53,148 bases of DNA from Bacillota bacterium (GTDB lineage Bacteria; Bacillota; Sulfobacillia; JAJYWN01), in NCBI GenBank assembly GCA_021791495.1, contig JAJYWN010000069.1:1-53148 (forward strand), in the 5' to 3' direction. Below, one piece after another: positions 4,786 through 39,459 of the stretch; position 1 is the stretch's first letter; every line of letters starts with the position of its first letter. Below the pieces are notes generated by a model. The model saw only the letters and a list, made by a program, of their open reading frames with translations, had not been told where the DNA came from and did no database searches. The position numbers and the translations under genes are program-made.

Positions 4786-5207
4786 TCACTCCTTGTGCAA
4801 GGTGCCTTCTGCCCGGACGATGGTGGAATCCAAGGTGAAACCCTACCGAAGAGCTCCCACCGCCTCCACGACTGTGGACTCAAGGACGAAACCCAAGGAC
4901 TCCGCCGTTCGACGGGAGGCGGCATTCTTGTTTGAAGTCTCGTAGATGGGTTGGCGGCCGGTCGCTATCAGGTAGTTGGAGCAGGCCGCCGTCACGGCCC
5001 TGCCCAGCCCCACGCCACGGCACTCCGCAGCTACGTAGACATTGGCGATCAGCCCGAAGCCCTCGCGCCACGGCACTCGGCGTCGTAGATGAAGCGCCGT
5101 TGGACGGGTGGAACATCGAGGACCCGCATGTTGCGGTAGAGGGCGTGCGTCAGCACCCTTGTCACATCGTCCGGAAGGCTCTCCACGATGGAAAGACGTG
5201 TCGTCAC
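4786..5207 (-). pseudogene. broken GNAT acetyltransferase with repeated tail
   Basis: Decayed relative of the upstream GNAT gene. Reading begins at a GTG (5207) that overlaps the previous stop as GTGA and gives VTTRLSIVESLPDD...RRFIYDAE. A frameshift near 5070 is needed to continue into the acetyl-CoA-binding half (GLIANVYVAAECRGVGLGRA...ESLGFVLESTVVEAVGALR), which stops at about 4846. The same frame then continues with a second version of the last stretch (GFTLDSTIVRAEGTLHKE) before a TGA at 4786-4788, so the 3' end looks tandemly duplicated. It also lacks most of the N-terminal domain of its intact relatives. Seen: shift and repeated tail. Inferred: non-functional. Confidence 0.75.
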
Positions 5208-5977
5208 GCCGGTACACCCTTCCGCGCCCTCAACAAGGTTCCCTCGCCGACCATCCGGCTCGTCTCGTAGCGCATCCCCAGCTTCTCGGCCAGCTTCAGG
5301 GCCGGCTTGTCTCGCGAATCGGACTCATAGACGGGGATCTGCTCGGCTTGGAGCAGGTAGTTCAGGCAGGCACCGGTCACGGCTTTGCCGAACCCGCAAC
5401 CCCGGCGGTCTGGTTTGACGAAGAGATCGCAAATGCTCCAGTACCGGTCGAACATCCGGGTTATCCAAGCGTCGGCTACCCATTGACCATCCTCGATAAT
5501 GCCAAACACCTTGGATTCGCCGCTCGCGGCCAGAATCTGAGCCGAGACGAAACGCTCCGCGGGCAATACTGTGATGTCGTCGGCGGTTAGCTCCCGGGCG
5601 GGACCGGCGGCCACCGGCTCCTTCCTGACGCGGGAATAGGTGACGTACATGGACATGGACGAGAAGCTGATCCTCTTCTCCAGAGCTTCACGGAGACCGG
5701 GGTTCGCATTCGGGATTTCCCAAAGGTAGTTTCCAGGCGGTATGTGGTCTACCAGTCCGGCCTCGAACTCCGGGTCACCGTAGGAGAAGCTGGCGCCGGT
5801 AAGCCCGTTAGGCATCCTCGGAGAGACACCCAACACCCCCTTTTCCAGGGCCTTATCATCGGCGTAGAACCTCTTGCCTGGGGATTTGTTCAGGCAAAGC
5901 ACCATCATGTTCGTTATGGGGAACAAGGACAGAAAAGCGTTCATCTCCTTGGACATGGTCATGTGTCTACTGATCAC
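5204..5977 (-). CDS. GNAT family N-acetyltransferase (paralogue 1)
   Basis: Acetyl-CoA-dependent transferase of unknown substrate, 257 residues. The C-terminal GNAT fold is recognisable: a beta-strand reading GIIEDGQWVADAWITR, the motif A loop near VKPDRRGCGFGKAVTGACLNYLL, and the terminal AEKLGMRYE strand. The N-terminal half (KEMNAFLSLFPITNM...) is shared with the two intact relatives next door and is typical of two-domain GNAT proteins. I chose the GTG at 5977, eight bases after GGAGGG; the frame is open further upstream but without a ribosome site. The stop overlaps the start of the decayed copy, suggesting a former operon of duplicates. Confidence 0.85.
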   Translation of the reverse strand: MISRHMTMSKEMNAFLSLFPITNMMVLCLNKSPGKRFYADDKALEKGVLGVSPRMPNGLTGASFSYGDPEFEAGLVDHIPPGNYLWEIPNANPGLREALEKRISFSSMSMYVTYSRVRKEPVAAGPARELTADDITVLPAERFVSAQILAASGESKVFGIIEDGQWVADAWITRMFDRYWSICDLFVKPDRRGCGFGKAVTGACLNYLLQAEQIPVYESDSRDKPALKLAEKLGMRYETSRMVGEGTLLRARKGVPA

Positions 5978-6058
5978 GAAGCCGACCCTCCAATTACGGA
6001 AGTGTGCGGGATGGATCGGATAGTGCCTTACTAAGGGCGGAGAGGGGAACAAGGGTCT

Positions 6059-7372: not shown

Positions 7373-8146
7373 TTACCTGGCTAAGGCAAGGCCATTCCGC
7401 GTACGCGACAAGATCCCCTCGCCCAGCACTCGTTTGACTTCGAAGGTGAAGCCCAAGCCCTCGGCCAGTCTACGGGCCGCGGTGTTCTCTTCTTCTGTCT
7501 CGAAAACCGGTACCTTCCCGGTCTCAAGGAGGTAGTTTACGCAGGCGCCCACGACCATCTTACCGTAACCGTGACGGCGATGGTCTGGTTTGACTTGAAG
7601 GTCGGCTACGGTCCAATACTGACCGTGCATCGGGACAATCCAGGCGTCGGCCACCCATTGCCCTCCCTCGATGACCCCGAAGACTCGGGCCCCGGCATCC
7701 ATGGCAATGACGTTGGCCGAGAACGGCCGTTCATCGACGAGTACAGGGATGTCGTCCGCCGTCAGCAGTCGGGCGGTCCCGGACGGCAAGGGGCCCCCAG
7801 ACGCCCTGGAATAGGCCACATACAAGTCAACGGGCGAGAAGCGTACGGTTTCGGTCAATGCCTGGTAAAGAGGCTCGCTCGGGATGGTCCACATATAAGG
7901 GCCAGGGGACAAGTGACGGACTAGGCGCATCTGAAAATCCGGCTCCCCCTTCGAAAAGGCGACCGCGGACGTAACCTTCGACTCTTTTCCGGCTACGGCC
8001 ATCACCCCACTATCCAGGGCGTTCAGGTCCGCGTAGAAGCGTTTCTTCGGCAACCTGGCAAAGGAAAGAAGCATCAGGTTCTCGATAGGGGAGCGGGACA
8101 GGAACTCAAGCATCTCTTTGGGCGCAGTGGCGAGCCCTGCAATCAT
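7373..8146 (-). CDS. GNAT family N-acetyltransferase (paralogue 3)
   Basis: A 257-residue acetyltransferase, exactly as long as paralogue 1. It begins MIAGLATAPKEMLEFLSRSP and contains FGVIEGGQWVADAWIVPM, the acetyl-CoA loop DHRRHGYGKMVVGACVNYLL and AEGLGFTFEVKRVLGEGIL. The frame stays open to 8665, but that part merely shadows the broken hydrolase gene in another frame. The ATG at 8146 has GGAGGG eight bases upstream and matches the start of paralogue 1. Substrate unknown; small-molecule or peptide acetylation are both possible. Confidence 0.87.
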   Translation of the reverse strand: MIAGLATAPKEMLEFLSRSPIENLMLLSFARLPKKRFYADLNALDSGVMAVAGKESKVTSAVAFSKGEPDFQMRLVRHLSPGPYMWTIPSEPLYQALTETVRFSPVDLYVAYSRASGGPLPSGTARLLTADDIPVLVDERPFSANVIAMDAGARVFGVIEGGQWVADAWIVPMHGQYWTVADLQVKPDHRRHGYGKMVVGACVNYLLETGKVPVFETEEENTAARRLAEGLGFTFEVKRVLGEGILSRTRNGLALAR

Positions 8147-8291
8147 AGCACTATCCCTCCAAGCTAGTACCTTTGGCACGCGCGTGTCTATGACCACGGA
8201 GCGGTCACCCGGCGCGACACCCATTGGACTTTGGCTTGGAGTGGCCTTCCACAAATCCTTCCGCTTCCAGGAGCGAAATCTTAAAGACCAG

Positions 8292-8850
8292 TTAAATCCT
8301 GAAAGAAGCCTTCTGCCTTTCCCTGCGGAGAAGCATGCGCTCTTTAGCGAGGTCGGTGGGCGTCGTCCAAAGGCCGGCAGCCGCCATCTCCGGGTAGACC
8401 TGCCACTTTCCGGCGATGGGCCGGCCGTCCGACCAATGGCCCGAAGCGGCCACTGTACCCAGGTGGTCAGGCAAGGGCTGCCGGAAGGTGCTGTGGCGCA
8501 TGCCGAGTGGCCCGAGAACCAAGTCATCCATGATCGACGGAAAATCCCTTCCCCCAGCCACATCGATGAGAAGCTGTTGCACCACCGTGGTCCCGCCGCC
8601 CGAATAGCGGAATTGCAGGCCCCACCCGTGCCCCCGCTTGACGCACCCCATAGCCACGGGCCCATTCCAGCCGGCCGTCATTGATGACGGCTACGCTCAC
8701 TCCTGGGACTCCAAGCATGTCCATCCGCTCCCGCAGCGGAATGGGAGTCGGCCGGTCAATTGGCAGAATCTGTCGGGGCAGAAGACCTTCTTCGATACGG
8801 GCTGCCCGCTGACTGGTCAGTTGATCGGAAGGCGGGGCGATCACGCTCAT
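8292..8850 (-). pseudogene. degraded beta-lactamase-fold serine hydrolase
   Basis: Remains of a class C beta-lactamase/esterase family gene. The first frame, from an ATG at 8850 (or GTG at 8844, seven bases after GGAGG), gives RMDMLGVPGVSVAVINDGRL and EWARGYGVRQAG. A second frame then gives FRYSGGGTTVVQQLLIDVAG, LVLGPLGMRHSTF and EMAAAGLWTTPTDLAKE before ending early. The segment between them, which should carry the catalytic SxxK motif, is missing, and the C-terminal third is lost. Internal deletion, frameshift and truncation together make activity very unlikely. It lies upstream of GNAT paralogue 3 on the same strand. Confidence 0.8.
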
Positions 8851-13276: not shown

Positions 13277-13390
13277 CCGGGTTTCCGGATGGTTACTAGG
13301 CGGTAATTATCCGCTTTTCCGACCGTTCATGTTTTGTGAAGCTTTGACACAGAACAATGAACTCTCAGAGACCGCTTCTGCAGCGCTCAC
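13277..13390 (-). mobile_element. half copy of the CTAG-type insertion (relative of 39083-39455)
   Basis: Read on the minus strand, this begins GGTGAGCGCTGCAGAAGCGG and runs through TCTGAGAGTTCA, GTCGGAAAA and AACCATCCGGAAACCCGG. It matches the left half of the element at 39083-39201 closely along its length. The inner end stops at the centre of that element's inverted repeat, so only one arm is present here. It abuts the transposase remnant at 13391. Bases 13258-13276 contain nothing else recognisable. Confidence 0.75.
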
Positions 13391-13507
13391 CTGGACGGGT
13401 GCTCGGTGTCGGTCGAGGTGTTTCCCGGCAACACGGCCGACCCCCTCACGGTCGAGTCGCGGGTGCGCCGGTTGAAGGAACGATACCACTTCCAGCGGGT
13501 CGTGGTG
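13391..13507 (+). pseudogene. IS1634/IS4-type transposase fragment
   Basis: An in-frame stretch of about 39 codons, LDGCSVSVEVFPGNTADPLT followed by VESRVRRLKERYHFQRVVV, matches the central conserved region of IS1634/IS4-like DDE transposases, where it normally continues into VVGDRGM. Here it is cut by the palindromic element beginning at 13512, and its 5' side is replaced by the half element. It has neither ends nor a full catalytic triad. It links the non-coding elements to a transposon background, but does not prove which transposase moves them. Confidence 0.75.
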
Positions 13508-13511
13508 TTTC

Positions 13512-13963
13512 GGTGGCGCGCGCAAAAACCAAGTTCATGTCGGAAGGGGGGGGTATCCGCCGCCATGGGGTCGTCGGAGTCAATTCGGGATACTTTTCCG
13601 AGACCAACAAGGTATCTTGGGTTTACCCCAGGCCATTGAGCCGGCTTTCACAATTGGGCGGCGGGCCTTTCGAGGTCGGGGTCCGCCGCCCCGTCTCTCT
13701 TTCCTCAGCTAGAGAGCACGGTGTCCACATTCGCGTTCCCCCAAGGAGCGGCACTCCACGGGAAAGTGGATCCCGAGACTTGGCGGCGGACCTCCAAAAG
13801 GCCTCTCGAATACCCCCCTGGGGTATAGCTGCGCGACGGGGGGTAAACCCAAGATACTCTCTTGTCGAGAGAAGAATATCCTGAGTTGACTCCACCCGTC
13901 GTTTCCATCGCGCCTCGGCAAACCACGGGTGGAGTCAACGGTGTTTTTGCCGCGCTCACCTAG
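13512..13963 (-). mobile_element. structured palindromic insertion, copy A
   Basis: A non-coding element of about 450 bp on the minus strand, nearly identical to 29284-29733 and related to 24541-24990. It runs from CTAG-GTGAGCGCGGCAAAAAC at 13963 to the complementary end GGTGGCGCGCGCAAAAAC at 13512, so the ends are inverted repeats. Inside are 18-base perfect arms GTATCTTGGGTTTACCCC (13612-13629) and their complement (13840-13857), a 20-base hairpin near 13884-13938 and an ATACCCC/GGGGTAT hairpin near 13809-13826. The CTAG at 13960-13963 contains the stop of the metalloprotease-like gene. Short open frames inside are not conserved as protein. Confidence 0.8.
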
Positions 13964-15799: not shown

Positions 15800-17182
15800 A
15801 TGAAAGCGAACCACGAGGAGCACGCCCCCTTCGAGGCGGCGGAGACAGCATCGGAGCAGGCCGGCGTTCTTGCGGCGCCACTGCCCGGCACGCCGACCTC
15901 CTCGTCGCCCGCGAAACGGCCTTCATCCTCCATCGCCGCCCTGGCCGGCACCTTCCTCAGCCGGACCTTCGGCTCGCTGGCCCTACCGAACTACCGCATG
16001 CTGTGGCTGGGCTTCATCGGTTCGTGGTTAGCCATGCAGCTGCAGCAGACCGCTCGCGGCTACCTGGCGTACACTCTCACGAACTCACCGCTGGCCCTCG
16101 GCCTGGTGACGCTCTCCATGGGCATCCCGCGTATGGTCCTGTCGCCATTGGGTGGGGTGCTGGCCGACCGACTAGTGAAGCGAAACGTCCTCGCCTCGAC
16201 CCAGACGGCGAACGCCCTCATCGCCATTACCGCCGCTCTCCTCATTCAGTTCGGCTGGATCAACATCGCCTGGCTCATCGCCCTCGGTTTCCTTCAAGGG
16301 ACCGCCTTCTCCCTCAACCAACCCGTCCGGCAGGCATACATACCGGAGACGGTGGGGGAGTCGGCCGACAAGTTGGCCAACGCCATCGCCCTCAATAACG
16401 CCGGTATGAACATGATGCGCATCGTCGGGCCGTCCATCGCCGGGCTCCTGATGGGGCTGGCCTTCTTCGGTGTCAAGGGCGTCTTCTTCATGGTCGCCGT
16501 GTGTTACCTCTGGGCCGCTTGGACCGTCTCCCGCATCGAGGTTACCGGGCAGCCGGCAGCCGGCAAGAGAATGGCCGTGGGCAAGGACATCTTCACCGGT
16601 TTCGCCCAGGTGTTCCAGAACCCGACCTTGGCGGCCCTGATGAGCCTGGGGTTCATCCCCCTGGCTATCGGCATGCCGTACCAGAACCTGATGCCAGTCT
16701 TCGCGGTCGGGATTCTGAAGGTGGGCGCCGTCGGCTTGGGGACCTTACTCACCACGGCCGGAGTGGGCGGGTTTATCGGCACTCTCCTGGTCGCGTACCT
16801 GGCCGCGTATCCAAAGAAGTCCACCCTGCAACTGGTGTTCGGTGTGGTTTTCGGCCTCAGCCTCACCGGCTTCGCCTTCTTCGCCCACGTGCATGTGCTG
16901 GCCCTGGTTTACCCGCTGGTCTTCGTCGTTGGCCTCACCGGCGGGGCCTATATGGCCATCAACAGCACCTTGGTCATGACTAACATCGACCGATCGGTCT
17001 ACGGCCGGGTGATGGGGGTCTACATGCTCATCCAGTCCATCCGCCCCGTGACCGTCCTGCCGGTGTCGGCCCTGGCCGAGCGTTTCGGCACCGATGTGGT
17101 GGTTGGGGTATCGGGGGTTTTCGTGACCTTGTTCGTGCTGGGTGTCGCGCTGTTGTACCCGGCCTACCGCCAGATCCGCTGA
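15800..17182 (+). CDS. MFS exporter (MFS_3/EntS-like), copy 1
   Basis: Inner-membrane proton-driven exporter of 460 residues with about 12 membrane segments. After a soluble N-terminal tail of about 55 residues it shows PNYRMLWLGFIGSWLAMQLQ, then the MFS loop motif GGVLADRLVKRNVL (usual GxLaDRxxxr), and ends LYPAYRQIR. The second copy at 21021 has exactly the same length and very similar sequence. No ribosome site precedes the ATG, and the -10 box lies only seven bases upstream, consistent with leaderless translation. Related proteins export siderophores, macrolides or other drugs; the substrate here is unknown. Confidence 0.9.
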   Translation: MKANHEEHAPFEAAETASEQAGVLAAPLPGTPTSSSPAKRPSSSIAALAGTFLSRTFGSLALPNYRMLWLGFIGSWLAMQLQQTARGYLAYTLTNSPLALGLVTLSMGIPRMVLSPLGGVLADRLVKRNVLASTQTANALIAITAALLIQFGWINIAWLIALGFLQGTAFSLNQPVRQAYIPETVGESADKLANAIALNNAGMNMMRIVGPSIAGLLMGLAFFGVKGVFFMVAVCYLWAAWTVSRIEVTGQPAAGKRMAVGKDIFTGFAQVFQNPTLAALMSLGFIPLAIGMPYQNLMPVFAVGILKVGAVGLGTLLTTAGVGGFIGTLLVAYLAAYPKKSTLQLVFGVVFGLSLTGFAFFAHVHVLALVYPLVFVVGLTGGAYMAINSTLVMTNIDRSVYGRVMGVYMLIQSIRPVTVLPVSALAERFGTDVVVGVSGVFVTLFVLGVALLYPAYRQIR

Positions 17183-20940: not shown

Positions 20941-21020
20941 CGGAGTCGGGTACATCGTTGCCGCAGCTAATTATCGCTTGCGGCAGCCTTGCCTTTCGGA
21001 CGGAGGGCCCTGACTCAGAC

Positions 21021-22403
21021 ATGGGAGCTTTGCACGAACTCAGTCACACGGCCGGCATCCCTTTGGACGGATCGCCGGTTTCCGCGCCGGGTGCGTCGGC
21101 CGCGCCCGACAACGGTCGCGGCGGACGTTCCTTGGTGGAAGCTATCGGCGGCGCCATGCAGGCGTTCACAAGCCGGACTTTCGGCTCCCTGGCCGCTCCG
21201 GACTATCGCATGCTGTGGCTGGGACTCATGGGCACCTGGATGGCCATGCAGTTGCAGCAGACTGCTCGCGGCTACCTCGCCTATCAGTTGACCGCTTCTC
21301 CGCTGGCCCTCGGCTTGGTGACCCTTTCCATGGGCATTCCACGCATGGTCCTGTCGCCACTGGGTGGCGTCTTGGCCGACCGCATGCCGAAAAGAGACTT
21401 GGTGGCCCTCACTCAAGTGGCCAACGCCGTCATTGCCTTCGCCGCCGTGGCCCTTATTCAGACCGGGTGGATCAATATCACTTGGCTCATCATTCTAGGA
21501 TTCATTCAGGGCACCGCCTTCGCGCTGAACATGCCGGTGCGCCAAGCGTACATTCCGGAGACCGTCGGGACGGGGCCAGGGATGGGCGACCGCCTGGCGA
21601 ACGCCATCGCCCTGAACAATGCCGGGATGAACATGATGCGCATTTTTGGCCCTTCGATCGCCGGCGTTCTGATCGGTCTGGCCTTCTTCGGCGTCAAGGG
21701 CGTCTTCGCCCTCATTGCCTTGTTCTACCTAGCCGCCGCGTTCACTGTTTCCCACATCAAAGTACGCGGCATGCCGGTATCCGGCAAGAAAAGGGCCGTC
21801 GGCAAGGACCTGGCCACCGGCTGGCGCGAGATCGCGAAGAACCATAAGGTGGCGGCCTTGATGAGCCTCGGGTTCATCCCCCTGGCCATCGGGATGCCTT
21901 ACGAGAACCTCATGCCGGTGTTCGCCGTCAGCATCTTGAAGACCGGGGCGCTGGGGCTGGGAGAGCTTCTGACCACGACCGGGGTGGGTGGCCTCATCGG
22001 CACCCTGCTCATCGCCTACCTGGCGAAATACCCGCGAAAGACCACCCTGCAGCTGATGTTTGGGGTTGTTTTTGGCGCCAGCCTGATCTCTTTCGCCCTT
22101 TTCGCGCGGATGCACTGGTTGCTCCTGGTCTACCCCTTCGTCTTCCTGGCCGGCCTGGCCGGAGGGGCATACATGGCCATCAACAGCACCCTGATCATGA
22201 CCAACATCGATCCTGCGGTGTACGGCCGTGTGATGGGCGTCTACATGGTCATCCAGTCCATCCGCCCGGTAAGCGTCCTACCCGTCTCGGCTCTGGCGGA
22301 GAAGTTCGGCACCGACGTGGTGGTGGCGGGGGCAGGAGCGGTCGTCATGCTCTTCGTCTTGGGCGTGGCGACGCTGTACCCGGAGTACCGCCAGATCCGC
22401 TAG
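21021..22403 (+). CDS. MFS exporter (MFS_3/EntS-like), copy 2
   Basis: A 460-residue inner-membrane exporter, paralogue of the gene at 15800. The two are alike from SRTFGSLA through PDYRMLWLG, GGVLADRMPKRDL and NAIALNNAGMNMMRI to the common end LYPEYRQIR; the N-terminal 50 residues differ. I prefer the ATG at 21021 because it equalises the two proteins; a TTG at 20958, near a GGAGTC, is possible and would add 21 residues. The duplication includes the promoter. Differences in the tail and loops suggest distinct substrates or regulation, but this is inference. Confidence 0.9.
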   Translation: MGALHELSHTAGIPLDGSPVSAPGASAAPDNGRGGRSLVEAIGGAMQAFTSRTFGSLAAPDYRMLWLGLMGTWMAMQLQQTARGYLAYQLTASPLALGLVTLSMGIPRMVLSPLGGVLADRMPKRDLVALTQVANAVIAFAAVALIQTGWINITWLIILGFIQGTAFALNMPVRQAYIPETVGTGPGMGDRLANAIALNNAGMNMMRIFGPSIAGVLIGLAFFGVKGVFALIALFYLAAAFTVSHIKVRGMPVSGKKRAVGKDLATGWREIAKNHKVAALMSLGFIPLAIGMPYENLMPVFAVSILKTGALGLGELLTTTGVGGLIGTLLIAYLAKYPRKTTLQLMFGVVFGASLISFALFARMHWLLLVYPFVFLAGLAGGAYMAINSTLIMTNIDPAVYGRVMGVYMVIQSIRPVSVLPVSALAEKFGTDVVVAGAGAVVMLFVLGVATLYPEYRQIR

Positions 22404-24477: not shown

Positions 24478-25090
24478 AAACCTCCTCCCCGAGCGGGAGG
24501 GGGTTCCAGGTTGTTGACAAACATGGACAACTGACCCCTGAGTGCCATCCCATCCGCGGTTTATGCCGAGACACGGCAGAAACCACGGGTGGAGTAAATC
24601 CCAGATACCTTTGGCGAATGGACAGGGTATCTTGGGTTTACCCCCCTTCTCGGAACCATACCCCAGGGGGGTATCGGAGAGCCCTTTCGGACCTCGCCGC
24701 CAAGTGTCGGGACCGACCCGTGCCCCGTCGGAATCCACCGTCCCTCGGACTGTCTTGCTATCCAGTAACGCAAATGTGGACCAGTGCGCCCTAGCAGCGG
24801 AAAGGAGACCACGGCCGCGTGATCCTCTCCTCGATAGACCTGGCGCCTCCTCGTGAAGGCCGGCACAATGGCTTGGGGTAAACCCAAGATACCTTGTTGG
24901 TCTCGGAAAAGTATCCCGAATTGACTCCCACGACCCCAGGGCGGCGGATACCCCCCCACCCCCCGATACGTACTACACGCGCACCTTCTGGGCCGCTGCA
25001 GACGCTGTTCAGATGAGGTGGTTTGCGCTTGGCGAACCTCTTTGTCAACAAGCTGAAACCCCCTCCCTGAGCGGGAGGGAGTTTCAGCCA
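24478..25090 (+). mobile_element. structured palindromic insertion, copy B, with hairpin ends
   Basis: This fills the gap between marR and ribU. The core (about 24541-24990) shares with copies A and C the 18-base arms GTATCTTGGGTTTACCCC (24627-24644) and complement (24875-24892), the ATACCCC/GGGGTAT hairpin, and the right flank from TTGGTCTCGGAAAAGTATCC to GGCGGATACCCCCC. The middle has diverged. The core is enclosed by two inverted hairpins of about 45 bases: CCTCCCCGAGCGGGAGG at 24483-24500 ending in TTGTTGACAAAC, and TTTGTCAACAAGCTGAAACC followed by CCTCCCTGAGCGGGAGG near 25068. I see no gene inside. Bases 25091-25154 carry nothing recognisable. Confidence 0.75.
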
Positions 25091-25154
25091 TCGCGCTGGT
25101 TTGCCTTGAACTAAGCCTTGAACTCCGGTCGCTGATCGGTCCCTTACTGAGCCG

Positions 25155-25751
25155 TTACTGAGCCCGGCGGGGATTTAGTCTCACCGACGCAGGCACAGCC
25201 GCCTCGAACATGTGCGCCGGGAGCCGGCGGGCGATCAGGACCATGACGACCGAGCTGATGAACCCTTTAACGATATTGAAGGGAATAATCGAAGCCACCA
25301 GGAGCTTGGTCGCGGCGCCGCCGGCCAGGCCGTAAGCGGGGAAGAAGAAGTAGTAGTTCGCGGCGACCATCACGGCGGTGGTGCTCAGAATCCCGACCGT
25401 AAGCGCCACGATCTGAGAGACCCCGCGCCGGGCCAAGAAAGCGAAAGGCACGACCAGAGCCAAACCGGCGACGAGATTGGCGGCGGAGCCGATCCAGCCC
25501 GACGCGCCTTTGCCGGAGAGGAAGAACAGGACGTTCTTCACAACCTCCGCCCAAGCTGCCCCGGCCGGGCCGAGGAGGGTGCCGGTGAGCAGGGCGGGCA
25601 CGTCACCGGCGTCATACTTCAGGAAATCGGGGAAGAGCGGTAGCATGATCTCGAACAGCATCAGCACGAAGCCGATGGCGCCGAGGGCCGCCGGAAGGAC
25701 GATGCGGCGGACCTTTGTCCTGTTGTTGTGACTAGAGTTCGGGCCGTTCAT
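25155..25751 (-). CDS. ribU: riboflavin ECF transporter substrate-binding subunit RibU
   Basis: Membrane S-component of an energy-coupling factor transporter that imports riboflavin, 198 residues with about six membrane helices. It includes VLPAALGAIGFVLMLFEIML, FPDFLKYDAGDVPALLTGTL (the conserved family stretch) and WAEVVKNVLFFL. The ATG at 25751 follows GGAGGAACC. The FMN riboswitch upstream confirms the vitamin. The shared energising module (EcfA, EcfA', EcfT) is not in this window. Confidence 0.93.
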   Translation of the reverse strand: MNGPNSSHNNRTKVRRIVLPAALGAIGFVLMLFEIMLPLFPDFLKYDAGDVPALLTGTLLGPAGAAWAEVVKNVLFFLSGKGASGWIGSAANLVAGLALVVPFAFLARRGVSQIVALTVGILSTTAVMVAANYYFFFPAYGLAGGAATKLLVASIIPFNIVKGFISSVVMVLIARRLPAHMFEAAVPASVRLNPRRAQ

Positions 25752-25787
25752 GGTTCCTCCAACACCCTTTCGTATAAAAACGATTAA

Positions 25788-25990
25788 CCCGGGGTGGCTA
25801 CCCCGGGCAGGTGATGGCAAGAAGGAAAGATCAAGCTGATCACACCCTCTTCCATCCGGACTGTACCGTCGGCTCCGGGATCTCACCGGCTCCTGCCGTT
25901 AGGCTCGCGGGCTCATCCCCCGTCTGGGGGCATCACCGCCGGTCGGGAATGGGGCCTTGTCGGCCCGCACCCTGCCCTGAAGGTCAAACC
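25788..25990 (-). promoter_or_regulatory. FMN riboswitch (RFN element) with terminator
   Basis: Read on the minus strand, the aptamer begins CTTCAGGGCAGGGTG near 25986 and includes GGCGGTGATGCC, GATGAGCCCGCGAGC, GGAGCCGGTGAGA and the closing GACGGTACAGTCCGGATGGAAGAGG near 25848, all hallmarks of the RFN element. A terminator hairpin CCCGGGGTAG-CCACCCCGGG at 25788-25807 is followed by TTAATCGTTTTTAT. FMN binding should terminate transcription before ribU. Confidence 0.95.
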
Positions 25991-26460: not shown

Positions 26461-29283
26461 TTGTCCAAGATACCGTTCATGACCGGAGACGACATCCGGA
26501 GCACGTTCCTGAAGTTCTTCGAATCGAAAAGCCACACCGTCCTGCCCAGCGCCTCGCTGGTGCCGGTGGACGACCCCACCATCCTGTGGATCAACTGCGG
26601 GATGGCCCCCTTGAAGCCCTACTTCGAGGAGAGGGTGGCGCCGCCCAACCGGAAGCTGGCCTCCAGTCAGAAGTCCATCCGGACGAACGACATCGAGAAC
26701 GTGGGCCGCACCCCGCGCCACCACACCTTCTTCGAGATGCTCGGGAACTTCTCCATTGGCGACTACTTCAAGGACGACGCCATCACCTGGGCCTGGGAAC
26801 TGGTGACGGGACGCCAGTACTTCAACCTGCCCGAAGACCTCCTCTGGGTCACCGTCCACCCCACCGATGACGAGGCGCGCCAGATCTGGCTGAAGAAAAT
26901 CGGCCTCCCCGCGGGCCGCATCGTGGACGATCCGGGCGATTTCTGGGACATCGGCCCAGGTCCGTGCGGGCCGAACTCCGAGATTTACATTGACCGCGGC
27001 GAACGGTTCGGCTGCGGGAAACCCGACTGCAGCCCGGTCTGCGACTGCTCCCGGTTCCTGGAGTTCTGGAACCTGGTGTTCACGCAGTTCAGTCATAACA
27101 CGGACGGCACCCACACTCCGCTGCCGAAGAAGAACATCGACACCGGCATGGGCCTGGAGCGCATGGCTTCCATCATGCAGGGCGTGGAAACGAACTTCGA
27201 GACGGACCTGCTCTTCCCGATCATCAAGGCGACCATGGATATCACCGGAAGGAAGTATTCGGGGACCATGGCCTCCAAGTCCGACTCCGACCTGGCCTTC
27301 CGCGTCATCGCCGACCACCTCCGCTCCTTGGCCATGGCCATCTCCGACGGCGCCCTGCCCTCAAATGAGGGGCGGGGCTACATCCTGCGCCGCCTGCTGC
27401 GGCGCGCGGCCCGCTACGGGCGCGTCCTGGGCGTGGAGGAGCCTTTCCTCTACACCATGGTCCCGACGGCGGTGGGCATCTTCCGGAACTCGTACCCCGA
27501 TATGGCGAAGACGGCGGACCACGTGGCCCGCGTCATCAAGAGCGAGGAAGAGCGGTTCGGCTCTACCTTGAACGATGGAATGCGGATCGCCATGAACATG
27601 GTGGGAGTGGCCAAGGAGAAAGCTGGCCCCGCGGCTGGGGAGGCGACGGCTCAGCTCCCCGGCGAGCAGGCTTTCCTGCTCTACGACACTTACGGCTTCC
27701 CTCTAGACCTCACCGAGGACATCGCCGCCGAGCACGGCCTCTCCGTCGACCGCTCCGGCTTCGAGAAAGCCATGGAAGAGCAGCGCGAGCGGGCGCGCGC
27801 GGGGCGTCAAGGCGGAGGGTGGGAGTCATCGGCAGCCTTCGCCGAGACCTTGCGCGACCTGCCGCCTACGGAGTTCGTGGGGTATGAGGTGCTGGAGGCC
27901 GATGCCAGCATCCTGGGCATTGTGAAGGACGACGAGCCGGTCTCGCGCGCGCAGGCGGGCGCCGAGGTGCAGGTCATCCTGAACCGCACGCCCTTCTACG
28001 CGGAAAGCGGCGGACAGGTGGGGGACATCGGCTACATCGAGGTCGTCGGCTCCCGGGCGGCGCTAGGCCTGACCACGGGCGGTAGCGGGGCGGTTAACGG
28101 AGCGGTGAACCGTGCGTCGACGGGCGCCGCTGCGGGCGACCAGCCCGCCGGCACTTTCTCCGCCGCGGCCCGTATCCGCGTCGAAAACACCCGCAAGACC
28201 ATGGACGGCAAGTTCCTGCACGTCGGGCGGGTCGAGTCGGGCGAGGTGGCCCAGGGCGATCAGGTCGTCGCCCGCGTCGACGCGGCGCGCCGGCAGGCCA
28301 TCGCCCGGAACCACTCGGCCACGCACCTGCTCCATAAGGCCTTGCGCCAGGTGCTGGGCGAGCACGCCCAACAGGCCGGTTCGCTGGTGACACCGGAGCG
28401 ACTGCGCTTCGACTTTACCCATTTCGAGGCGCCGACCGCCGAGCAACTGCGGCGCGTGGAGAGCATCGTTAACGAAAAGGTCCTGGCGAACCTGCCGGTC
28501 CGGACCGAAGAAATGTCCCTGGCCGAGGCGCGCGAGGCAGGCGCCACCGCCCTGTTCGGCGAGAAGTACGGCGACCACGTGCGGGTCGTGACCATGGGGG
28601 ACTTCTCTATGGAGCTGTGTGGCGGGACGCACCTCCGGAACACGGCCGAGGTCGGCCTCTTGAAAGTCGTCGGGGAAGGCAGCGTGGGGTCGGGCCTGCG
28701 CCGCATCGAGGCGGTCACGGGCTTCGGTTCCTTGGAGCGCATGTGGCAGGACGAGGAGACCTTGAACAGCGCCGCCTCCGAACTGCGCGCGCCGGTGGAA
28801 GAGATTCCGGCCCGCATCCGTGCTCTGCAGGGAGAGATCAGGGCGCGGGAGCGCGAGCTTGAGTCCCTGCGCGCGAAGATGAGCCGCCAGTCGGCGGACG
28901 AACTCATCGCCGCGGCGACCGGAGTGAACGGGGCGAAGATCGTGGCGGGCAAGGTGACGGCGCCGACGATGGACTTGCTACGGACGGCGGCGGACGCCAT
29001 CAAGGCCAAGCTGGGCTCGGGCGTGCTTATCCTCGGTTCGGTGACGGGCGAAGGCGACAAGGTCAACTTGGTCGCTATGGTCACCCCCGACCTGACGGCG
29101 AAGGGCGTGCACGCCGGCAACATTATCAAGGAAGTCGCCCGGATGGCGGGTGGCGGCGGCGGCGGCCGACCCGACATGGCCCAGGCCGGCGGCAAAGACC
29201 CGGCCAAGCTGGACGAGGCCCTGGCGCGCGGACGTGAAGTGGCCGAGCAGCAGCTAAAGGGCGGGGCGGCGGCCAAGGCCTAG
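26461..29283 (+). CDS. alaS: alanyl-tRNA synthetase
   Basis: Class II synthetase that charges and edits tRNA-Ala, 940 residues. It opens with DIRSTFLKFFESKSHTVLPS and has the class II core with NVGRTPRHHTFFEMLGNFSI. The editing domain has the zinc-binding set HSATHLLHKAL and later CGGTHLRNTAEVG. The C-terminal coiled coil and DHHA1-type domain end in GGGGGGRPDMAQAGG. TTG at 26461 lies eight bases from AGGAGG; the ATG at 26455 is too close to it, and an ATG at 26479 is also possible. An extra Gly/Ala-rich insert lies around residues 535-560. The stop codon TAG sits in the CTAG that borders element copy C. Confidence 0.97.
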   Translation: MSKIPFMTGDDIRSTFLKFFESKSHTVLPSASLVPVDDPTILWINCGMAPLKPYFEERVAPPNRKLASSQKSIRTNDIENVGRTPRHHTFFEMLGNFSIGDYFKDDAITWAWELVTGRQYFNLPEDLLWVTVHPTDDEARQIWLKKIGLPAGRIVDDPGDFWDIGPGPCGPNSEIYIDRGERFGCGKPDCSPVCDCSRFLEFWNLVFTQFSHNTDGTHTPLPKKNIDTGMGLERMASIMQGVETNFETDLLFPIIKATMDITGRKYSGTMASKSDSDLAFRVIADHLRSLAMAISDGALPSNEGRGYILRRLLRRAARYGRVLGVEEPFLYTMVPTAVGIFRNSYPDMAKTADHVARVIKSEEERFGSTLNDGMRIAMNMVGVAKEKAGPAAGEATAQLPGEQAFLLYDTYGFPLDLTEDIAAEHGLSVDRSGFEKAMEEQRERARAGRQGGGWESSAAFAETLRDLPPTEFVGYEVLEADASILGIVKDDEPVSRAQAGAEVQVILNRTPFYAESGGQVGDIGYIEVVGSRAALGLTTGGSGAVNGAVNRASTGAAAGDQPAGTFSAAARIRVENTRKTMDGKFLHVGRVESGEVAQGDQVVARVDAARRQAIARNHSATHLLHKALRQVLGEHAQQAGSLVTPERLRFDFTHFEAPTAEQLRRVESIVNEKVLANLPVRTEEMSLAEAREAGATALFGEKYGDHVRVVTMGDFSMELCGGTHLRNTAEVGLLKVVGEGSVGSGLRRIEAVTGFGSLERMWQDEETLNSAASELRAPVEEIPARIRALQGEIRARERELESLRAKMSRQSADELIAAATGVNGAKIVAGKVTAPTMDLLRTAADAIKAKLGSGVLILGSVTGEGDKVNLVAMVTPDLTAKGVHAGNIIKEVARMAGGGGGGRPDMAQAGGKDPAKLDEALARGREVAEQQLKGGAAAKA

Positions 29284-29733
29284 ATGAGCGCCGCAGAACC
29301 ACAGTTGACTCCACCCGTGGTTTGCCGAGGCGCGATGGAAACCACGGGTGGAGTCAACTCAGGACACTCTTCTCTCGACAAGAGAGTATCTTGGGTTTAC
29401 CCCCCGTCACGCGGCTATACCCCAGGGGGGTATTCGAGAGGCCTTTTGGAGGTCCGCCGCCAAGTCTCGGGATCCTCCTTCCCGCGGAGTGTCGCTCCTT
29501 GGGGGAACGCGAATGTGGACACCGTGCTCTCTAGCTGAGGAAAGAGAGACGGGGCGGCGGACCCCGCCCTCGAAAGGCCCGCCGCCCAATTGTGAGAGCC
29601 GGCTCAAATGGCCTGGGGTAAACCCAAGATACCCTGTTGGTCTCGGAAAAGTATCCCGAATTGACTCCAACGACCCCATGGCGGCGGATACCCCCCACCT
29701 TCCGATGTGAACTTGGTTTTTGCGCGCGCCACC
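29280..29733 (+). mobile_element. structured palindromic insertion, copy C
   Basis: Starts in the alaS stop codon: CTAG (29280-29283), then ATGAGCGCCGCAGAACCACAG, and ends TTGGTTTTTGCGCGCGCCACC, an imperfect inverted repeat of the start. Nested pairing is extensive: a 20-base perfect hairpin with arms 29304-29323 and 29339-29358; 18-base arms 29386-29403 and 29615-29632; GGTCCGCCGCC (29451-29461) with GGCGGCGGACC (29553-29563); GGCCTTT (29440-29446) with AAAGGCC (29573-29579); a local hairpin at 29417-29433. It is about nine-tenths identical to copy A. To the right, TTTGTCAACAGCCTGAGA at 29789 resembles the hairpin end of copy B. Otherwise 29734-29921 holds only the rhomboid leader. Confidence 0.82.
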
Positions 29734-29921
29734 AGCCCCAGACGGGCGGCGACATGGGTCGGCAGGTCATGCGTGTCGGGGCCGAGAGTTTGTCAACAGC
29801 CTGAGAGACCGGGCGCGCCGGTTTCGCACCCTTGGGGGTCGACCACCACAGACAAAAAACCCAAAGCACGGATAGAATAAGGCCGGTACAGCTGCCAAGC
29901 CAGGGTTTAGGAGGACAAAGC

Positions 29922-37464: not shown

Positions 37465-39216
37465 GTGGACGTGCGCCAAAGCGGAGATGCGAGACTGCGG
37501 CGGAGGATGGCAGCGGTTTTGGGCTGCCTCCTCCTTGTTCTTACCGTTCTCTTGGGGCAGCTTTGGCGGATCCAGGTCACCGAAGGAAAAACCCTGTCCG
37601 CCGGGGCGGTTCGTCAGCGCGCCGTGGCCACCTCGCTGGGGCCCGGACGCGGCGACATCCTGGACCGGAACGGCAATTCGCTGACGGGGGCGCACTTTGC
37701 CTCGGTCTCCCTTAACGTCGGGGGCGCCGCTGGCGCCGCTGCCGCCAGGACCACTACCGCAGGCGCCGCTGCCGCCAGGACCGCTGCCGCCGGGACCACG
37801 GCGGCGGTTGCGAAGGTGCGCTATGGCCCCGACTCACTGGCCCATCACCTGGTTGGATACGTGAGGGGCGACGACAACCGCGGAGTGAGCGGGGTTGAAC
37901 TGGCCATGGACCGCTTCCTGCGGTCAGACCAGGCCCCCCAGGCCCTGGCCTTCATCGACGGCCAGGGGCGGCCCATACCGGGGCTGGGTGTCCGCTTGAC
38001 GCCCGAGACCGGGCGGAACAATGTCTGGTTGACCATTGACGCGCAGGCACAGGCGGCGGCAGAGAAAGCCCTGGTGAGGGCGGGCGCCCCGGGGGCGGCG
38101 GTAGTGCTTGACGCCGCTTCGGGCCAAGTCCTGGCCATGGCGAGCCGGCCCGACTTCGCCCCCGACCGGGTGGCCGACTATCTCCATGCCAACGGGGCCC
38201 CCCTCGTCAACCGCGCCACCTCGGCCTATGCGCCCGGGTCCGTCTTCAAGCTGGTGGTTCTGGCCGCAGCCCTGGAAACGGGTGCTACCCATCCGAGTGA
38301 GGTCTTCGAATGCCCCGGGTACGTCGACGTCGGTGACCGGCGCATCCCTTGTCTGGCTCACCCGTCTGCCTCGCCTGCCGCGCCCGCGAAGATCACAGTG
38401 GTGGACGCGCTGGCGCAATCCTGTAACACCACCTTCATCAAGCTGGGGCTGCGGATAGGGCCGGAGGCTATCGCCCGCCAGGCCCGGCTCTTTGGTCTTG
38501 GGCAGACCACCGGGACCGGCTTGCCTGAAGAAGCCGCGGGGAACATCCCCGCGCCGGCCGGCGCGGCTTCGGACGGGGGGATCAGCCGCGGTGACATCGC
38601 CAACATGGCCATCGGACAAGGAGATGTGATGGTCACCCCCTTGCAGGTGGCCCGAATGATCGCCGCCATCACGCAACGCGGCGTCATCTCCGAACCCTCG
38701 GTTTTCGGGAAGGTGGTCAACCAGGACGACATCACCGTGTGGCGGCCGGGCGAGCCGGTTCTGGCGAGGGCCGTGACCCCGGCTACGGCCTTGGTCCTTC
38801 GGGAAGGCATGACCAGGGCGACGAAAACAGGTACATCACGGGCCGCCCAGCCGGCGGCGCTCGGCCTGTCTTCCGCCCGCGGGCTCAAGGCGGCCGCCGG
38901 GAAATCGGGCACCGCCGAGACTCCCGGGAAGACGGCCGCGGGCGAGCCAATCAACAACGCCTGGTTCGCCGGCTACTATCCGGGCGACCACCCCAGATGG
39001 GTCATCGTCGTGGTTCTGGAGACCACTGGCACTGGCGGCGGACAAGCCGCCCCAGTCTTCGCCGAGATTGCCGGCGCCCTAGTGAGCGCTGCAGAAGCGG
39101 CTTCTGAGAGTTCAACGCCCTGTGTCAGAGCTTCTCAATACGTGAATGGTCGGAAAACCGGAAACTTACCGCTCAGTAACCATCCGAAATCCCGGCCGGA
39201 TGGCACAGTTATGTAA
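37465..39216 (+). CDS. penicillin-binding transpeptidase, tail altered by insertion
   Basis: Membrane-anchored cross-linking enzyme (PBP2/FtsI class) of 583 residues. One N-terminal helix (AVLGCLLLVLTVLLGQLW) precedes RGDILDRNGNSL. A tandem Ala/Arg/Thr-rich linker (residues about 90-115, two copies of a GAAAART unit) replaces most of the usual dimerisation domain. Catalytic motifs are SVFK in YAPGSVFKLVV, SCN in AQSCNTTFIKLG, and KSGT in AAGKSGTAETP, where KTGT is usual. Native coding ends at AEIAGAL near 39081. The last 45 residues are encoded by the element inserted at CTAG. Without the insert the tail would be ALARATR and stop. Confidence 0.87.
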   Translation: MDVRQSGDARLRRRMAAVLGCLLLVLTVLLGQLWRIQVTEGKTLSAGAVRQRAVATSLGPGRGDILDRNGNSLTGAHFASVSLNVGGAAGAAAARTTTAGAAAARTAAAGTTAAVAKVRYGPDSLAHHLVGYVRGDDNRGVSGVELAMDRFLRSDQAPQALAFIDGQGRPIPGLGVRLTPETGRNNVWLTIDAQAQAAAEKALVRAGAPGAAVVLDAASGQVLAMASRPDFAPDRVADYLHANGAPLVNRATSAYAPGSVFKLVVLAAALETGATHPSEVFECPGYVDVGDRRIPCLAHPSASPAAPAKITVVDALAQSCNTTFIKLGLRIGPEAIARQARLFGLGQTTGTGLPEEAAGNIPAPAGAASDGGISRGDIANMAIGQGDVMVTPLQVARMIAAITQRGVISEPSVFGKVVNQDDITVWRPGEPVLARAVTPATALVLREGMTRATKTGTSRAAQPAALGLSSARGLKAAAGKSGTAETPGKTAAGEPINNAWFAGYYPGDHPRWVIVVVLETTGTGGGQAAPVFAEIAGALVSAAEAASESSTPCVRASQYVNGRKTGNLPLSNHPKSRPDGTVM

Positions 39217-39459
39217 TCTATCCCCCTCGCTAGAGCGCATTTGGAGCCCTTGAAGGAGGGAGCGTGTCCGGGTTTCCGGATGGTTTGTCACCTCTGAGTG
39301 GCCGGAAAACCGACCTTTTGCCCTGAAGCTTTGTACTCTTCTAGCACAAACTCGCACCTGACAGGATGCCGGAAGGACACCTGTCCGCGCTTTCGCCACC
39401 ATGGTCCCAAGAACACGCTAAATGGGCTAGACAACTGTGGTTTTGCAGCGCTCCCCTAG
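39079..39459. mobile_element. CTAG-flanked inverted-repeat insertion, copy D
   Basis: A 373-bp insert flanked by CTAG on both sides (39079-39082 and 39456-39459). Its ends are inverted: TGAGCGCTGCAGAA on the left, and GGGAGCGCTGCAAAACCAC read inward from the right. Long internal arms (39148-39195 and 39268-39316) share GGTCGGAAAACCGG...AACCATCCGGAAACCCGG-type sequence in opposite orientation. The left half matches the half element at 13277-13390. No gene fits inside. Removing the insert and one CTAG restores a short natural end to the penicillin-binding protein gene. It is a MITE-like non-autonomous element by structure. Bases 39460-39588 hold nothing more. Confidence 0.85.

Follow-up and report, generated by a model that had tools for sequence, protein, structure and literature searches.

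The palindromic non-coding sequence present in three copies in the window (i.e., the whole stretch of DNA analyzed, 53,148 nucleotides, corresponding to contig C5 of a 4.2-Mb draft genome of 81 contigs, 97% complete) is likely to be a non-autonomous, MITE-type DNA transposon belonging to a lineage-specific superfamily, which would insert at terminators, duplicate the terminator hairpin, and carry half-sites bound by a protein. That these sequences are mobile, non-autonomous elements inserted at terminators with duplication of the hairpin can be proposed with good confidence. As in other MITEs, the family is multi-copy, short, non-coding, and dispersed, its full-length copies have terminal inverted repeats, and a target-site duplication is recognizable at four loci. 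The first-pass annotation had left the choice between a structured RNA and a folded-DNA transposition substrate; the multiple non-coding copies, the inverted ends, and the flanking target duplicated at several loci bring the element closer to the latter. The target duplications of most bacterial transposons measure 2-14 bp. Insertions framed by a duplicated and locus-specific terminator hairpin might point to an integrase reading DNA structure at gene ends, an integration target that would represent a safe harbour and of which few examples are known.

Copies in the window and their anatomy

The three related copies (A, B, and C) had already been noticed, and their relationships are confirmed: A and C share 95% identity over 454 bp in mutually inverted orientation, and B (compared over 24550-24967) resembles both at about 75% identity (74-76%). 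The limits proposed in the first-pass annotation were less accurate, since the range 24478-25090 given for B includes two duplicated hairpins lying outside the element and C, which had been closed at 29733, runs on to 29799. The features are the following:

13395-13515, plus strand: remnant of an IS1634-family transposase gene adjoining copy A (NF033559, E = 5e-6, profile positions 176-213)
13512-13963, minus strand: copy A, left end CTAGGTGAGCGC at 13945-13963
13579-13626: right box of copy A (minus-strand element)
13843-13890: left box of copy A
24478-24509: terminator-like hairpin to the left of copy B, 32 bp, directly repeated on the right with 84% identity
24511-25051, plus strand: copy B, full-length element of 541 bp, perfect 11-bp inverted ends at 24511-24521 and 25041-25051
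24594-24641: left 48-bp box of copy B
24878-24925: right 48-bp box of copy B
25056-25087: terminator-like hairpin to the right of copy B, paired as a direct repeat with 24478-24509
29280-29799, plus strand: copy C, left end CTAGATGAGCGCC instead of the usual TTGTTGACAAA
29304-29358: hairpin H1 of copy C, stem of about 20 bp, read directly (inverted repeat detected at 29303-29359)
29353-29400: left 48-bp box of copy C, with half-site GTCAACTCAGGACAC and inverted half-site GTATCTTGGGTTTAC separated by 18 bp
29417-29433: ATACCCCAGGGGGGTAT hairpin adjoining the left box of copy C, nearly invariant across 19 copies
29618-29665: right 48-bp box of copy C, with GTAAACCCAAGATAC and GTATCCCGAATTGAC separated by 18 bp
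29688-29696: conserved ATACCCCCC outside the right box of copy C
29789-29799: right end of copy C, TTTGTCAACAG, diverged, followed by a hairpin
29805-29825: GC hairpin just beyond copy C on the right, GAGACCGG...CCGGTTTC

Read from the left, a full copy such as B has H1 followed by a 48-bp box and by the ATACCCC hairpin; some 200 bp of centre separate these parts from the second, inverted box, and the conserved motif (ATACCCCCC) lies outside the latter. The core of the element is represented by the two inverted boxes, each made up of a 15-bp half-site (GTNNAYYCNRGAYAC), an 18-bp spacer, and an inverted half-site. The pairings described previously are all present: the GTATCTTGGGTTTACCCC 18-base arms (four arm matches in the window against none in 100 shuffles), the ATACCCC...GGGGTAT hairpin, the 20-bp hairpin in A and C, and the complementarity between 29350-29367 and 29651-29668, with 15 of 18 Watson-Crick pairs in copy C. 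This last "alternative pairing" corresponds to the outer half-site pair of the two boxes, and the pairings run among the four half-sites.

Copy C starts exactly at the alaS stop codon and copy A exactly at that of its neighbouring gene. Both, together with a copy on contig C62 (L003), lack the usual left end and share the altered one CTAG(A/G)TGAGCGC, which resembles the end of a second dispersed non-coding family, represented in the window at 39078-39459. It was also considered that CTAG ends of the second family might delimit A, C, and L003 on either side; this idea was discarded, since the left end alone matches and C retains its own diverged right end. An open frame covering most of copy B (24561-25091) was not regarded as a gene. 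With gene calls based solely on open frame and codon-position GC, no convincing gene was found inside the copies of the family. The second family has about 29 matches genome-wide and the ends CTAGGTGAGCGCTGCAGAA; on direct reading, its layout is similar, with inverted half-sites of its own (GTCGG..TTTCCGG type) and different sequences. One of its fragments lies at 13277-13394, beside copy A.

Flanking hairpins and proposed mode of insertion

About 26 recognizable copies of the family were found in the genome, three of them cut by contig ends. Intact copies are approximately 541 bp long and have the inverted ends TTGTTGACAAA/TTTGTCAACAA; about half of the copies have lost these usual ends or carry others in their place. 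Eight of the nine exact TTGTTGACAAA ends in 1.2 Mb adjoin a strong GC hairpin resembling an intrinsic terminator, and the 40 nt upstream of the exact ends have a mean MFE of -20.9 kcal/mol vs -10.2 kcal/mol at random positions. The flanking hairpins differ completely between loci, whereas at four loci the element has one and the same locus-specific hairpin on either side as a direct repeat, which is 32 bp long at copy B, about 45 bp at C35, about 29 bp at C22:45021, and 20 bp at C49:52072. The scores obtained by comparing left and right flanks were 44, 61, and 39 for the first three loci, the maximum in 506 between-locus comparisons being 31, and 30 for C49:52072 (empirical p 0.002). No convincing flanking repeat was found at the full copies C62:73060, C44:58792, and C4:43206. 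As far as the sequences can be interpreted, the direct repeats read as a long target duplication spanning the terminator hairpin.

A hairpin stands at nearly every intact end, and one might argue that the hairpins are part of the element rather than target duplications. This appears highly improbable, given that they are wholly different between loci and match within the locus in four cases, and that at C28 the hairpin is located just downstream of a gene whose C-terminus, from reading its sequence, we take to be rpsI-like, that is, where a normal terminator would lie. The repeat pairs at B and C35 have drifted to about 84-86% identity; therefore, these insertions are old. The duplicated stretch at C35 includes about 20 nt resembling the right end of the element itself, so that the history of insertion at this locus is not simple; an earlier neighbouring copy may account for this sequence.

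According to the mechanism that we propose, an enzyme acting in trans would target transcription terminators, inserting the element at their hairpin and thereby duplicating this 20-45 bp hairpin. Landing at terminators would place the copies at the 3' ends of genes, where they should do the least harm. The four half-sites would be bound by a protein, most simply the transposase, with two dimers joining the ends, and a host protein might possibly bind them after insertion.

The family shares with bacterial MITEs such as Chunjie and QMITE1/2 (review PMC10969869) the non-coding nature, the length of a few hundred bp, the inverted ends, and the intergenic location, as well as the tens of copies, the wide sequence variation, the flanking direct repeats, and the stable predicted fold. 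It differs in that bacterial MITEs are AT-rich and this family is GC-rich; moreover, the direct repeats of QMITE2 are 7-9 bp long (PMC10969869), whereas here they span the whole hairpin, the copies carry a fixed 15-18-15 internal box pair, and an autonomous parent with matching ends was not found. Insertion adjacent to terminators is shared with a different kind of mobile DNA, i.e., group IIC introns, which insert beside intrinsic terminators. However, group II introns are not known to duplicate the target or to have inverted DNA ends, and the Rfam scan of the window gave no group II intron match and no domain V.

A more radical and rather unlikely interpretation is that of an undescribed integration system, which would recognize the terminator hairpin by shape and not by sequence, duplicate it as a whole, and mobilize gene-less 15-18-15 elements by means of a solitary, possibly domesticated, enzyme. 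Such a system might explain how several element families diversified and persisted together in one lineage; an analogy is offered by CRISPR adaptation, which likewise duplicates a palindromic repeat.

Two further loci were also observed. A diverged element (C22:128377-128950) consists of a hairpin, CAGCTTGTTGACAAAG, and GGGGGGTATCC, followed by another repeat family with CGCCARAATCT-type inverted half-sites and five members in 1.2 Mb. At C54:134409, a hairpin is followed by ATTGTTGACAAAGGG and by an unrelated palindromic interior, that is, the same end with a different core.

Constraint on the half-sites

The scan of 1.2 Mb, in which spacers of 14-21 bp were allowed, yielded 42 boxes, all but one with an 18-bp spacer, and none after shuffling; genome-wide, 85 boxes were retrieved with up to three mismatches, compared with none in the reversed-pattern control. 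Barring truncated, sub-threshold, and contig-end cases, the boxes in 1.2 Mb form inverted pairs 253-317 bp apart, and no convincing gene lies between the paired boxes. They span several divergent and hardly alignable families (e.g., C62:209477, C54:148146, C28:107320, C22:9381, and C22:45021), in which the half-sites have changed together, as in the case of GATAC/GTATC becoming GACAC/GTGTC. When changes private to a single copy are counted, the half-sites show 0.13 per column, the 18-bp spacers 0.58, and the centre 0.65 (Fisher p = 5e-8), i.e., private mutations accumulate in the half-sites at about one fifth of the rate seen in the centre. A dead repeat is expected to decay evenly, and the possibility of ordinary repeat debris, raised in the first-pass annotation, is not supported by this difference. 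The half-sites are probably protein-binding sites under constraint, and the sequence comparisons make it fairly likely that a protein binds them.

Two origins of the pattern can be envisaged, i.e., selection on the half-sites after insertion, or master copies in which a large part of the divergence was generated. The age of the flanking repeats would favour the former, and the retention of the core in copies that have lost their outer ends is consistent with it. One possibility is that the elements, although spread by transposition, have a function for the host, as BIME/REP-like chromosome-organizing or 3'-end elements to which a nucleoid or topology protein would bind, each copy being under selection after insertion. 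The half-sites are indeed constrained on recent branches even though the duplicated hairpins have drifted, and the core (consensus positions ~77-446) persists in nearly all copies despite the frequent loss of the outer ends, bearing in mind that a core-based search favours such copies. Divergent gaps are also avoided, since in the scanned part, with a simple gene finder, none of 22 copies falls in a divergent gap, compared with 85 of 329 background gaps (a chance of about 0.001, i.e., 0.742 to the power of 22). Nevertheless, the constraint might be explained by selection for transposition and by a short time since insertion, no protein binding the boxes is known, and nothing was found in the relatives searched (class and phylum samples), so that a host function seems to us possible, yet on the whole unlikely. 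The strictly spaced half-sites raise the question of whether dispersed palindromes are purely selfish or kept by the host, an old issue that becomes directly testable because the half-sites are protected from mutation in old copies.

The other reading considered in the first-pass annotation was a structured RNA family, transcribed as a long rod with nested or alternative helices and acting as an sRNA, a riboswitch, or a 3' UTR element. The predicted fold is in fact very stable, with z-scores of -8.6 (minus strand) and -6.5 (plus strand) and none of 100 shuffles as stable, and the minus strand folds better than the plus one in all 19 copies; with covariation at shuffle level, this preference would be weak evidence for an RNA. 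Inverted repeats, moreover, fold well on both strands, so that stability alone does not point to RNA. When the 19 aligned copies were compared on both strands, the best consensus structure contained five pairs with two-sided change and 48 further pair types, the shuffle means being 5.0 and 48.7, respectively. Within the paired arms, G-U mismatches are as frequent as A-C ones (81 vs 80 cells), which would be expected of a double-stranded site and not of a folded RNA strand, and the left arm exists in two alternative versions while the right one hardly varies. Finally, the Rfam scan of the window recognized an FMN riboswitch only, with no match to the element. On these grounds, we consider a structured RNA quite unlikely.

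Distribution and candidate mobilizing enzymes

The family was absent from the 153 other genomes of the class (154 searched, by sequence), save for two weak partial matches (E 3e-5 and 6e-4), which were set aside given that the phylum sample lacks the box pattern. In that sample (398 genomes drawn, 397 of them other genomes), from which near relatives are possibly missing, searches by sequence and by box pattern gave nothing convincing, with no occurrence of the 48-bp box pattern. Similarly, the half-site pattern had no match in 84,980 species genomes or in IMG/VR, where near relatives are again possibly missing; eight 16-mer matches in viral contigs were judged, by their number, to be at chance level. 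As far as can be seen from the genomes compared, the family is lineage-specific and has been found so far in one genome. A single-genome origin had been indicated beforehand as an argument against a family; the single genome stands so far, but within it the family is large.

As regards the enzyme that might mobilize the non-autonomous elements, the same remnant of about 120 bp (40 aa) of an IS1634-family transposase gene is joined to the right side of copy A and of L003, and it occurs only at these two places in the genome. For IS1549 and IS1634, direct repeats that are long and vary in length, from 8 to 514 bp, have been reported (PMC2266710), and the repeats described above, being long and variable, match this type. 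Because of these reported repeats and of the remnant adjoining two copies, the IS1634-family transposase is the best lead to the mobilizing enzyme, a hint and not a proof, and the remnant could be a chance neighbour. That an IS1634-type transposase is the very protein binding the half-sites seems on the whole unlikely. Unlike IS1634-family insertion sequences, the elements are gene-less; inspection of the exact ends and of the box pairs in 1.2 Mb revealed no transposase gene with the family ends, and an intact IS1634-like element with such ends was not found. An autonomous copy could be hidden by the draft assembly, in which some copies stand at the ends of contigs. Boxes of the GTGTCCCGAATACAC family were observed at C4:53381, C10:46649, C46:25061, and C61:200, and a contig ends within about 210 bp of at least three of them; the assembly may have been interrupted by near-identical copies of recent origin, which could conceal an autonomous element.

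The paired inverted palindromic modules also call to mind REPINs and REP doublets (PMC3116915), with which the family shares the conserved ends, the variable middle, the conserved spacing, and the presence of several families per genome. REPIN-like elements mobilized by a single-copy, domesticated Y1 (HUH) transposase would be in agreement with these features, with the long persistence known for REPINs (PMC3116915), and with the six Y1_Tnp matches in the genome. These matches, however, mostly belong to one multi-copy IS200-like element with copies 93-96% identical, and no boxes lie beside Y1 genes, so that Y1/RAYT enzymes were rejected as mobilizers. The element (about 330-540 bp) is several times the typical size of a REPIN, has no associated RAYT, and is flanked by duplicated terminator hairpins. 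Such hairpins are not a known feature of REPINs, and this explanation is very unlikely. The IS200-like element (L150-L155) is present in about four near-identical copies, some of them at contig ends.

Lastly, other features of the window deserve mention. The FMN riboswitch (25840-25988, minus strand) lies upstream of a gene for an ECF transporter substrate component (25155-25886, minus strand), plausibly a riboflavin transporter, and copy B is located just downstream of this gene. Two MFS transporter genes (15800-17182 and 20958-22403), 75% identical over 1.2 kb, flank a CbiR-like gene and an ABC transporter, representing a local duplication. Two related GNAT acetyltransferase genes (5204-6052 and 7373-8665, minus strand) share about 65% DNA identity over 320 bp.
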